From positions 1 through 64,000 of the forward strand of contig JAPOQK010000003.1 of assembly GCA_026710795.1 (NCBI GenBank): a stretch of DNA of 64,000 bases, given 5' to 3'. The first letter of the stretch is position 1; each line of letters opens with the position of its first letter. Positions 18,742-47,773 of this stretch are shown in pieces. The stretch is from Candidatus Poribacteria bacterium (GTDB lineage Bacteria; Poribacteria; WGA-4E; WGA-3G). The notes beneath the pieces are model-generated. The model was not told the DNA's origin, did no database searches, and worked only from the letters and a program-made list of their open reading frames with translations. The position numbers and the translations under genes are program-made.

Positions 18742-19722
18742 CTATTGTTTCGGATAGAGAAGGTGAATGTTATCACCAAATGTCAATTCATCAACAGAAG
18801 AATACGTTTTGGCTAAATCAATTTCTATATAAGTTTGTCCACCTTTAGTTCCACTGTAACCTGTGGAAAAGATGAGCTGCTTATCACCGAGTCTGACGAC
18901 TCCATCCTTCATATATTTGGGTGAAAAAAGTCCTACAGGTGTATGTCCAACAACCAAAATATTCGCATTGAGAATTTTAAGAAAATTCTCGGTATGTTTC
19001 AACGTATATCCACCAAACATTACCAATTTTGAACGGTCCCACAACAATTCGTCAAGTGTGTCTTTAGCTGGTGTAACAAGGTCTGATAGGCTGCTAATGC
19101 TGCGCGCTGGACCTGCATGGACGGCGACAAATCCGTTTTTACCGATAACCACTGTCGGAAGGTTCATAATGAAATCGAAATGTGTATCAGTCATTCGTTC
19201 AATGAAATTAAATTGTTTATAATAGCTACCGTTTATACCGTTGTATAATCGATGAATGAAAGCCTGTCTGTTTTTTTCATTCATTCCGTGTCTTTTCATC
19301 ACAGCATAAGTGTCTGCTGCCGCGAATTCGTGGTTACCTCTAATATAGATCAATCTTTTTCCATTTTCTCCAAGTTCTTGCTGTATTTCCATTACTCGGT
19401 CAACAATTTGGATGTCCCCGTACGGGGGTTTTGGTTGTTCATCGGGTTTATAATCAATTGCATCACCAAGCATTATCCCGTAAACATCTTCATCTGCTTT
19501 AATCCGATCAATTAATTTGGTTTGTTCCAGCCACTGATTAAAATCTTTCCAATGTGCATGTAGGTCAGCAACAATGTAGGCAGTGCCGTGATCGGGTAGG
19601 ACAATTATGTGTCCATCTCGGGTAATTTCATTGGGATACTGTGAGAGGTGTTTCGGTTGGGCATTTACAACCATTGTGAAACATACGAGCAAAAAGGTTA
19701 TTGGATAAAGATAAGTGTTCAT
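18742..19722 (-). CDS. Exported metallophosphatase (calcineurin-like / PPP type)
   Basis: The signal peptide (residues 1-21, ending VNA) is followed by the five metal-binding blocks of the metallophosphoesterase fold. These are VADLHAHW (D-x-H), MLGDAIDY (GD), IRGNHEF (GNHE), VAVHAGPA (H) and LVVGHTPVG (GH). The GNHE and HAGP forms point to the protein-phosphatase-like PPP branch rather than to phosphodiesterases. It would act in the periplasm or outside. It begins six bases after the stop of the peptidase gene, so the two are very likely co-transcribed. Substrate unknown. Confidence 0.87.
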   Translation of the reverse strand: MNTYLYPITFLLVCFTMVVNAQPKHLSQYPNEITRDGHIIVLPDHGTAYIVADLHAHWKDFNQWLEQTKLIDRIKADEDVYGIMLGDAIDYKPDEQPKPPYGDIQIVDRVMEIQQELGENGKRLIYIRGNHEFAAADTYAVMKRHGMNEKNRQAFIHRLYNGINGSYYKQFNFIERMTDTHFDFIMNLPTVVIGKNGFVAVHAGPARSISSLSDLVTPAKDTLDELLWDRSKLVMFGGYTLKHTENFLKILNANILVVGHTPVGLFSPKYMKDGVVRLGDKQLIFSTGYSGTKGGQTYIEIDLAKTYSSVDELTFGDNIHLLYPKQ

Positions 19723-19728
19723 AGGTTC

Positions 19729-20649
19729 TCACTCTCTGAAGAAGACATCAACGACTTCTTCCTGTTGTGCAAGTTTATTTAGTCGCAATCGTCTACGATT
19801 CCAACTAATGAAATAGAAAAACAAGAATAACATTGCTAAACCACCCCAAAAAATGTATGAACTGGAAAGCAGAGATGCCCAGTGATAACGTTTTGGCAGT
19901 GATTCTCGCCATTGCTTATCAAAGGTTGCGAGATCGTAACCGAGAACAGATTCAAATGCTGTGTTTAGATTAGTCTCGTTGTGGAGACGGTCAATAACTG
20001 TCCATAAAGGTTCAGTGCCGTTAATCTCAACAAACCAACGGAGTGCGTCTTGACTTTGTGCATAAGCTAAATCCGCACCATTCTGTGAAGCGGGAAATTT
20101 GCTTGTTAATTCGTGAAGCGGCAAAATAGATTTTGTGAATACATTTTTCAGTAAGGTTTCGTGTCGACCGGGAACCCATTCCTTTGAGAAATGCATTGCA
20201 ATGCCTTCCACAAACCATAACGGAATTCCTTTGACCGACTTTTTTGTGTATTGTCCAAAAAGAACATGTGCAATTTCGTGACGAAGAACTTGTGCTAATT
20301 GGAGTTTCGCAACTGAGATCTGAGCAGGATTTTGTATTATGATACGCCGACTTAACGGAAACGCACATCCAACTGCCCAATCTTGTATCGGTGCATGTAC
20401 AAAGGCTTGAAACGCTTTTTGAGTGTCGCAAACATAAATTTTAATTGTTTCGTCAGGGATGTGACGTGTAATCCGATACAATTCTGCATAGAAATCTTCC
20501 GCTATTTTGAGTATAGATGCCGGATCTACTGTGTTTTCTCTGTAGTATATGCGAAAATGTGTACTTTCTGATGTTTCCCATGAAGCAGCTACGGAGAATG
20601 ATGGAAGTAATAATAAAACAAAAACAACGTTTTTCATTTGAAACATCAT
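19729..20649 (-). CDS. Membrane-anchored gluzincin metallopeptidase (peptidase MA-like)
   Basis: After a signal peptide the catalytic domain carries HEIAH (zinc ligands and catalytic Glu) and, 21 residues further, WFVEGIAMHFSKE, which supplies the third (Glu) ligand. This is the pattern of the peptidase MA-like families. Near the C-terminus (residues about 264-290) a membrane span (SSSYIFWGGLAMLFLFFYFISW) and a basic tail anchor it with the active site outside the cytoplasm. Met5 is an alternative start. It lies 12 bases after the serpin stop and six before the metallophosphatase, so a protease inhibitor and a protease share one transcript. Confidence 0.83.
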   Translation of the reverse strand: MMFQMKNVVFVLLLLPSFSVAASWETSESTHFRIYYRENTVDPASILKIAEDFYAELYRITRHIPDETIKIYVCDTQKAFQAFVHAPIQDWAVGCAFPLSRRIIIQNPAQISVAKLQLAQVLRHEIAHVLFGQYTKKSVKGIPLWFVEGIAMHFSKEWVPGRHETLLKNVFTKSILPLHELTSKFPASQNGADLAYAQSQDALRWFVEINGTEPLWTVIDRLHNETNLNTAFESVLGYDLATFDKQWRESLPKRYHWASLLSSSYIFWGGLAMLFLFFYFISWNRRRLRLNKLAQQEEVVDVFFRE

Positions 20650-45796: not shown

Positions 45797-46543
45797 GTGC
45801 GGCTGGAAAAATATATCGCTACCTCAGGCATTGCCTCTCGTAGAGCAGTAAAACGTGCTATTCGTGAAGGATTTGTGACCGTTAACGGAAATGTAATACA
45901 CATCCCCGGTCATCCGATCGACATAGAAACAGACGATATTGAATATGATGGGAAAGTGGTTAAGCCACTAACCGAACGTATCTATATCATGTTAAATAAA
46001 CCGACAGGTTATTTAACAACTCGACATGATGAACGGGGACGTCCGACTGTTATGGACCTGTTGGCAGACCTCCCGAAATCTATTTATCCTGTTGGACGTT
46101 TGGATTTGAACTCTGAAGGACTTCTTTTATTCACTAACGATGGTAGTTTTGCATATCGGATGATGCATCCCAGTCATGAAATTGAAAAGACATATCTGGC
46201 GTGGGTAAATGGTGTTCTGAGTAGACGGGCACTTAAACGACTGCGAAGTGGTGTCAATATCTCTGGTGGTATAACTTCTCCTGCCAAAATCAAACAACTA
46301 AATGTTAAAACTGCACATATACCTAATACTAAAAAGAAAAAAGTTAGATACGGAGAAGTGGCAAAATATCAGGTAATAATCCACGAAGGAAAAAAACGAC
46401 AGGTCCGTTTAATGTTTAAGGCGGTAGGACATAACGTCATCCGTTTGAAGCGGACACGCATTGGTAGGTTAGGGTTAGGCAATCTCCCGCAGGGGAAGTA
46501 TAGATTACTGACCCCCGCGGAAGTTGCTGAATTACAAGATTAA
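45797..46543 (+). CDS. 23S rRNA pseudouridine synthase, RsuA/RluB/E/F family
   Basis: The N-terminal S4 domain (RLEKYIATSGIASRRAVKRAIREGFVTVNG) recognises RNA. The catalytic domain has YIMLNKPTGYLTT and the Asp-containing YPVGRLDLNSEGLLLFTNDG. EGKKRQVRLMFKAVGHNVIRLKR closes the family pattern. Start is GTG 45797 with AGGTGG upstream. I name it RluB-like by size (248 residues); RsuA or RluE is possible. The stop overlaps the convergent thioredoxin-TPR gene by four bases. Confidence 0.9.
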   Translation: MRLEKYIATSGIASRRAVKRAIREGFVTVNGNVIHIPGHPIDIETDDIEYDGKVVKPLTERIYIMLNKPTGYLTTRHDERGRPTVMDLLADLPKSIYPVGRLDLNSEGLLLFTNDGSFAYRMMHPSHEIEKTYLAWVNGVLSRRALKRLRSGVNISGGITSPAKIKQLNVKTAHIPNTKKKKVRYGEVAKYQVIIHEGKKRQVRLMFKAVGHNVIRLKRTRIGRLGLGNLPQGKYRLLTPAEVAELQD

Positions 46544-47667
46544 TTGTCAGATGTCTCTCCGGCTTCTGCAGCCAATCCTTTGACACGTTCCAATTGTCTC
46601 GTAGCAGACTGTATTATCCGATCATCAGAACTATGGCTTATCAACTTCTCAAACAACGCAATAGACTTATCATACTGTTTGTTGAGTGAATATGTGATCC
46701 CAAGATAATATTGGGCAGTTTCATAGTTTGTGCTTTTCGGATATTTATCAATGATTGTTTGGAAATACATTATTGCATTTTCTGCTAACTCAGACACGTC
46801 AGTGCCTTCTTTTCCAGCTTCTACCTGAAGTTTCATTGCATAAGCGAGACCAATTTGGATATGCAAGTTAGGCAGCAGGCCCGAACTGTTTTTTGGATCT
46901 TTTTCAATAACCTTTTTGCTGTACGGAAGTGCTGCTTCTATTTGCCTTTTTTGCAGGTAGGTAACAGCAATCTGATTATTCAACTTAACATCGTCAGGCA
47001 TCTTCTCGCTTATCTGAAGTGCTTCATCAATTTGATCCTTACCAAGATAATAGAAACCAAATTCTCTATTCAACTCAACATCATCAGGCATCTTCTTACT
47101 AATTGGAAGAGCTTTTTCAACTTGTTGACGTTGTAAGAAGAGGATGGCAATCTCACGGTTCAGTTTGACATCATCAGGTTTCTCTTTATATTCCGCCAAT
47201 TTCTCTTGGAATTCCGACTCTGTTTTCAGTACATTTTCCATTACAGGCAAAAAATCATTAGGAGGCATATAACCTGAGTGGTTTTTTATAACACCCCCAT
47301 CCGGACTAATAAAAAGAATTGCTGGAAATCCTCTAATTCCGTATTTTTGCTGTGCTTCCAAATTTTCAGGACGTTCTTTATCTTCCGGGTTAACTTTAAC
47401 AGGAATGAAGTTCTCAGCGATGGCGATAATGCGTGCATCGGTGAATGTGTCGGCATCCAGCCGTTTACACCATCCTCACCATTCTGTATAGAAATCCATC
47501 ATCATCGGTTTACCGGTTTCAACGGATTGTGAAGTAGCTTCCGCAATAGACATTCCCCATTGAACTTCTTCTCCTTCTGCCAACACAGGTATTGATACCG
47601 TGAGCAGTAACAGGACACAGAGTCCTGTAAGATAGGGTGAGTGTCTGTGAAAAACAGAATTAATCAT
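46540..47667 (-). CDS. Candidate selenoprotein: exported thioredoxin-fold/TPR protein with in-frame UGA at the first active-site Cys
   Basis: A conventional reading stops at UGA, 47476-47478. Reading through gives one frame of 375 residues with no other stop. Signal peptide (about 1-30), thioredoxin-like domain (about 34-135) with MMDFYTEW-U64-GWCK, and the cis-Pro block GFPAILFISPDGG. Residues about 150-370 are TPR-like repeats (PDDVKLNREIAILFLQRQQVEKAL and near copies). The UGA falls exactly on the first Cys of CGWC. A hairpin with a GG-containing loop starts six bases after it. TGA is the normal stop elsewhere, and the downstream half is intact, so selenocysteine is more likely than decay; a recent TGC/TGT to TGA mutation or a sequencing error is the alternative. 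TAAGGAGAG precedes the ATG. Confidence 0.8.
47447..47470 (-). other. Bacterial SECIS-like hairpin after the UGA
   Basis: On the minus strand, counting from the first base after UGA, GTGT (6-9) pairs with ACAC (26-29). CGGC (13-16) pairs with GCCG (22-25), the loop is TGGAT (17-21), and a three-base AAA bulge lies between the stems. The apical loop has G at its second position, 18 bases from the UGA. These match the published bacterial SECIS consensus (loop 16-37 bases away, G among the first two loop bases, short upper stem) as I recall it. Covariation is untested. Confidence 0.65.
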
Positions 47668-47773
47668 TAATTCTCTCCTTAAAATTTAACTTGAGTGATA
47701 GTATGAGGATGAGTCTAACCTGTAATCTTATGTGAAATATCCACATTTCCATCTACCACACTTAGTTGGTAGA

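Follow-up and report, generated by a model that had tools for sequence, protein, structure and literature searches.

A reading frame that is open apart from one UGA codon may be a broken gene or a selenoprotein gene, and this question is posed by a locus on contig JAPOQK010000003.1 of a Candidatus Poribacteria bacterium (assembly GCA_026710795.1), of which positions 1 to 64,000, hereafter the window, were analysed. The gene occupies positions 46,540-47,667 on the minus strand and spans 375 codons, including the UGA, followed by a TAA stop. A preliminary description of the window had proposed that the UGA stands at the first catalytic Cys of an exported thioredoxin-tetratricopeptide repeat (TPR) protein, where it would be read as selenocysteine (Sec). 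The proposal is strongly supported by the Sec machinery of the genome, by the conservation of the UGA, by frozen codons past it, and by purifying selection; on these four lines, codon 64 is almost certainly decoded as Sec, which would make the gene a genuine selenoprotein gene.

The in-frame UGA and its decoding

The frame opens with an ATG at 47,667-47,665, preceded at a distance of 7 nucleotides (nt) by a Shine-Dalgarno-like AAGGAG (47,675-47,680, minus strand), and closes with the TAA at 46,542-46,540. Read with UGA as U, it yields 375 residues and contains exactly one UGA, at codon 64 (47,476-47,478, minus strand), in the context FYTEW-U-GWCKRLDADTF. The UGA thus falls on the first position of a UxxC motif, W-U-G-W-C-K, precisely where a CGWC-type thioredoxin motif has its first Cys, and the single interrupted frame of the preliminary description, which named no strand, is borne out on the minus strand. 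A plus-strand reading of the locus was rejected, with several stops in its translation.

The standard open reading frame (ORF) list represents the locus solely by a 273-aa fragment that starts at an internal TTG (codon 103), and the full protein would be missed by standard annotation, as had been anticipated. This TTG also offers a start for a reading in which the UGA is a true stop that ends a 63-residue exported peptide, the rest of the gene being restarted internally. Such a restart would, however, cut the thioredoxin fold and leave its product with no signal peptide, and Cys67 (47,467-47,469, minus strand), the presumed resolving Cys of UGWC, lies three codons past the UGA and ahead of the TTG yet is invariant in 32/32 aligned proteins; a true stop is accordingly very improbable.

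A frame conserved across the UGA would also be expected if the codon were read as another amino acid, such as Trp, through an altered code or a suppressor tRNA. Against this stand the position of the codon, which is that of a catalytic Cys and not of a Trp, the presence of a full Sec machinery, and the ordinary use of TGA as a stop, since of 41 long ORFs in the window (200 aa or more, without overlaps, and with this gene's fragment included) 7 terminate in TGA. We regard recoding of this kind as a very slight prospect, in agreement with the earlier view that the genome as a whole is not recoded. One other read-through candidate in the window (18,742-20,649, minus strand), where TGA separates two unlike frames in the same phase, was rejected: it reads as an ordinary boundary between genes, and a new ATG follows after 6 bases.

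The genome to which the window belongs (4.70 Mb, 94% complete) was searched for selA, selB, selC and selD, as the preliminary description had advised, and all four are present, each above its curated cut-off. The tRNA-Sec gene, on contig C27, scores 73.9 bits against a cut-off of 47 and is called by ARAGORN as tRNA-SeC with anticodon UCA. It is adjoined by selB (360.9 bits, cut-off 242.25), in whose product the SelB winged-helix domains were found, while selA and selD score 611.9 and 354.4 bits against cut-offs of 267.9 and 125. The selD gene (L063, contig C43) itself contains an in-frame UGA, in the motif CAGUASK, and is a selenoprotein gene too; we take this UGA to mark the position at which SelD enzymes are known to carry Sec. 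More widely, tRNA-Sec was found in 35 of 39 genomes searched, this one included, and in 29/29 of those with at least 90% completeness and at most 5% contamination.

Homologues were aligned in order to learn whether relatives carry UGA or Cys at the Sec64 position. A name-based scan of genome contigs, on which alone the distribution outside the phylum is based, gave 13 loci, 12 from Candidatus Poribacteria metagenome-assembled genomes and one from candidate division LCP-89. Among 43 loci aligned at the codon, TGA is found in all 42 that come from the phylum. The LCP-89 locus (L052), a DsbD-like relative in a 624-aa frame, has TGT (Cys); the DsbD of the window's own genome likewise has Cys at the redox site where the selenoprotein gene has UGA. 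TGA was read again in twelve further loci and in L082, whose genome belongs to another part of the class. The phylum total is 55/55 loci with TGA and none with TGC or TGT; nine sequences are represented twice among them, which leaves 46 loci distinct over 600 bases. Because the same codon recurs in all of these loci, the UGA is not a chance occurrence, and a sequencing error is very unlikely.

A match to the family at E <= 1e-15 was obtained in 73 of 84 phylum genomes. A copy with one TGA occurs in 71 of the 72 genomes of the order, as counted from the matches listed; the position of the TGA within the gene was verified for the fetched loci, and for the other genomes a frame with one TGA was counted. 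Outside the order, the class is represented by ten genomes, of which one (G048) has a divergent copy containing a single TGA, and the same search found no family match in either of two genomes outside the class. In G008 it returned only a stop-free frame, which is DsbD. That genome has tRNA-Sec and murJ; RluB was not found in it by a search that finds RluB in 3/3 other genomes of the genus, so that either the region is absent from the assembly or both genes have been lost as a block.

Several genomes of the genus (G003, G005, G006 and G007) have a second, longer family copy of about 434-442 codons, which in G005 adjoins the first (G005:C130:21548-22549; L018 3047-4132). The motif reads U-YW-C in place of U-GW-C in L020 (G007) and L022 (G002), and U-PA-C in the divergent relative at L082 510-1454, which has the same UGA.

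A gene that appears broken in standard ORF calling could simply be a pseudogene, the product of a recent nonsense mutation, or a sequencing or assembly error. Decay of the part after the UGA would be expected in that case and had been named in the preliminary description as a refuting observation; as far as the refuters named there could be examined, none held. Compared with L010, the closest relative, the window gene has a synonymous divergence (dS) of 0.55 and a nonsynonymous divergence (dN) of 0.084, or a dN/dS of about 0.15, over the 311 codons downstream of the UGA, and a dS of 0.19 and a dN of 0.071 over the 63 codons upstream. Upstream and downstream of the UGA alike, dN is smaller than dS in 8/8 pairs. 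The downstream half is not decaying; by this codon-based measure it is under purifying selection. As the identical UGA recurs across the phylum in 46 distinct loci, a pseudogene or error is the least credible of the explanations considered, and decoding as Sec is retained.

The RNA element past the UGA

Insertion of Sec at codon 64 would be directed by a bacterial selenocysteine insertion sequence (SECIS) directly past the UGA, and the strongest evidence for such an element, above folding energy and covariation, is codon freezing. Of 44 distinct sequences, 40 have CGGCUGGAUGCCG at +13 to +25 past the UGA, two (L028 and L038) have CAGCUGGAUGCUG, a two-sided change that preserves the pair, and one has CGGCUGGACGCCG. 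At the level of codons, Arg69 is CGG in 35/35 cases (37 sequences, with another residue in two), Leu70 is CUG in 37/37, Asp71 is GAU in 36/37, and Ala72 is GCC in 35/37, whereas conserved residues elsewhere mostly have mixed codons, as for Arg180 (CGU 12, CGA 6, CGG 13, CGC 6) and Ala174 (GCC 5, GCU 4, GCG 12, GCA 14). Exceptions are Asp166 (GAU 33/36) and Lys53 (AAA 33/37), both less strict than Phe59, five codons upstream of the UGA (47,491-47,493), which is UUC in 37/37 sequences while other conserved Phe codons are mixed. The frozen Phe59 codon may belong to the RNA element, as a part of it that lies ahead of the UGA.

The predicted apical hairpin, CGGC-UGGAU-GCCG (47,451-47,463, minus strand), can pair in 160/160 cells of a 40-sequence alignment, from which L082 was excluded because it is divergent. 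An RNAalifold consensus of the same 40 sequences retains this hairpin and places the UGA itself in a lower stem (GUGAG with UUCAC), giving a whole predicted element at 47,441-47,479 (minus strand). An alternative lower helix, GUGU/ACAC, pairs in 74.4% of cells and, taken with the apical stem as one structure, in 87.2%, where slid partners reach no more than 64.1%; this helix was rejected in favor of the consensus arrangement. The bSECIS model, as set out in the legend to Fig. 2 of PMC13188914, has an upper stem of 4-16 bp, a distance from UGA to apical loop of 16-37 nt, and a minimum free energy (MFE) of at most -7.5 kcal/mol. By the terms of that legend, the hairpin here is of the expected form, with a 4-bp stem and a 5-nt loop, UGGAU, that has G at position 2, and its spacing of 16 nt stands at the lower limit. 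The 25-nt stem-loop that contains the apical hairpin has an MFE of -8.3 kcal/mol and the 13-nt apical part -5.5 kcal/mol; a 71-nt segment folds otherwise.

Several observations weigh against a selenoprotein gene with this element. The window's 71 nt have a competing MFE fold (-27.8 kcal/mol) in which the four apical pairs have probability 0.0, and of 43 distinct sequences, 30 include the apical hairpin in their MFE fold when 51 nt are folded and 18 when 71 nt are folded. Covariation is thin, with three of the four apical pairs invariant and one double change in two sequences, and a +1 slide of the partners has the higher covariation score, 0.055 against 0.027. The sole locus outside the order, L082, reads AAGCUGGAUGCGA and keeps only 2/4 apical pairs. 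Finally, tRNA-Sec was not found in 4 of the 39 genomes searched (G003, G010, G017 and G029), of which three are at most 81% complete and G017 is 93% complete.

A ribosome paused at the UGA would be expected to alter which RNA folds can form, and L082, with half of the SECIS stem, may use another hairpin. The 71-nt fold has a z of -3.28 (2/200 shuffles equally good), which is not counted as support because its MFE fold differs from the SECIS hairpin. A search for the element elsewhere in the genome, blind to other selenoproteins, returned no second copy. With the frozen codons, the preferred reading remains that SelB and Sec-tRNA-Sec, directed by this element, would insert Sec at codon 64.

The probably exported protein and its relatives

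Both sides of the UGA encode recognizable parts of one protein, as the preliminary description had held for the signal peptide, the cis-Pro, and the TPR region. Residues 1-30 (47,578-47,667, minus strand) form a putative signal peptide with the hydrophobic core LCVLLLLTVSIPVLA followed by EGEE; residues 1-32 have a predicted local distance difference test score (pLDDT) below 50 in the structure model. Export by this signal is likely, as read from the residues themselves. A DsbD-gamma-like thioredoxin domain, assigned by Pfam, NCBIfam and Foldseek, covers residues from about 33 to 148 (47,224-47,571, minus strand) and includes Pro115 (47,323-47,325, minus strand), which is invariant in 32/32 aligned proteins and which we take, from the established thioredoxin fold, to be the cis-proline. 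A TPR solenoid, recognized by Pfam, by the structure model, and by structural search, follows at residues from about 149 to 368 (46,564-47,223, minus strand). The 13 Pfam matches of the read-through protein include Thioredoxin_2/7 and TPR families, with no DsbD_TM or other membrane domain among them; PF13098 (Thioredoxin_2) matches at E 3.7e-16 with 59.8 bits against a cut-off of 27, and the motif within it is UGWC. Sec in place of Cys would make for a more reactive redox center, as is general in selenium chemistry.

The domain cd02953 is presumably the DsbD-gamma domain. Sec-containing thioredoxins of this domain have already been published: a thioredoxin-fold "thiol:disulfide interchange protein" with PF13098 and UxxC is tabled in PMC9312934 and PMC13188914, and PMC2398784 tables 22 Global Ocean Sampling sequences of "Trx-like 2 (Thiol disulfide interchange protein)", cd02953, also with UxxC. 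The Poribacteria protein resembles these families in its Thioredoxin_2 domain and the position of its Sec, and it has TPRs, which the table rows for those families do not name, the comparison being by table entry. In the text available of these sources, "TPR" and "tetratricopeptide" have no occurrences in PMC13188914 or PMC2398784, and "Poribacter" has none in PMC13188914 or PMC9312934. Searches of titles and abstracts in the open-access literature returned no description of either a TPR-thioredoxin selenoprotein or Poribacteria selenoproteins.

The best NCBIfam match is to TsoB (NF045694), a rhodanese/DsbD fusion-like selenoprotein, of which profile positions 439-571 of 572 align to residues 17-146 (E 3.9e-21); the profile matches 32/32 aligned family members, and DsbD-type models are also among the best matches. 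The protein is unlike TsoB in scoring 74.8 bits against the TsoB cut-off of 805 and in having one Sec and TPRs where TsoB is tabled as UxxxxU with two Sec, and none of the best 25 of its 28 NCBIfam matches reaches its cut-off. DsbD-gamma, by comparison, belongs to a membrane protein and carries Cys, the DsbD of this genome reading CAAC, whereas here Sec is joined to a TPR solenoid.

In the order of its domains, a thioredoxin domain and then C-terminal TPRs, the protein is like the chaperedoxin CnoX/YbbN, and E. coli YbbN (3qou) is its top Foldseek match. It could then act as an exported analogue of CnoX/YbbN, a rival account of function only, in which the TPRs would hold clients that are unfolding or oxidized and the Sec thioredoxin would repair or protect their cysteines. 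Superposition over the whole length is poor, however, with TM-scores of only 0.22 and 0.28, and a second structural alignment has DsbD-gamma chains among the 50 matches listed but not YbbN, and DsbD-type models rank among the best from NCBIfam. Moreover, CnoX/YbbN is a cytoplasmic protein that is not known to contain Sec, with GroEL and DnaK as partners, while the selenoprotein looks exported. The analogy is possible but doubtful.

The account preferred here, an evenly balanced proposition when taken jointly, is that the product is exported, that its UGWC domain is a thiol-disulfide oxidoreductase, that its TPRs dock clients, and that DsbD supplies electrons. After export, Sec64 would attack a disulfide or an oxidized cysteine of an envelope client while the TPR solenoid holds that client, Cys67 would resolve the mixed selenosulfide, and the membrane reductase DsbD, for which the genome has an intact gene, would re-reduce the Sec64/Cys67 pair. 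That DsbD has 631 aa, with CAAC in its thioredoxin part and DsbD_TM present, and the genome also encodes a small thioredoxin with CGPC.

The selenoprotein gene lies between murJ and a convergent rluB-like gene in the window; in G014, it and murJ are on separate contigs. Across 29 sources (the window and 28 loci of relatives, with flanks of 1.5-3 kb), an rluB-like frame, in which RluB-type domains were found, is nearby in 23; these sources cannot be counted as so many independent genomes, since L010 and L040 represent one locus and the flanks are short. A frame read from its sequence as MnmE-like is nearby in 19/29. Elsewhere, a DsbD gene is directly followed by a TPR-looking gene (L083 633-2525 and L077 838-1926, contig C35; also L081 in G008), and it looks as if DsbD-type thioredoxins and TPRs have been associated twice in the lineage, the TPR name here being our own reading.

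A selenoprotein of the order

It is conceivable, and is put forward tentatively, that this sponge-associated order of Poribacteria has among its core proteins an exported thioredoxin-TPR oxidoreductase that depends on selenium and acts, in essence, as an envelope chaperedoxin, with Sec never replaced by Cys in the sampled loci. If this is true, a core exported selenoprotein would be one reason for which the lineage retains its Sec machinery. Because standard ORF calling truncates the gene, a redox protein present in nearly every sampled genome of the order is easily missed. The occurrence of Sec in an apparently exported thioredoxin, with no Cys form seen across the order, makes it testable what Sec buys over Cys. 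According to PMC5649159, most bins of sponge symbionts, from various phyla, have SelA and SelB together, and the gene would be a concrete candidate product for that co-occurrence.
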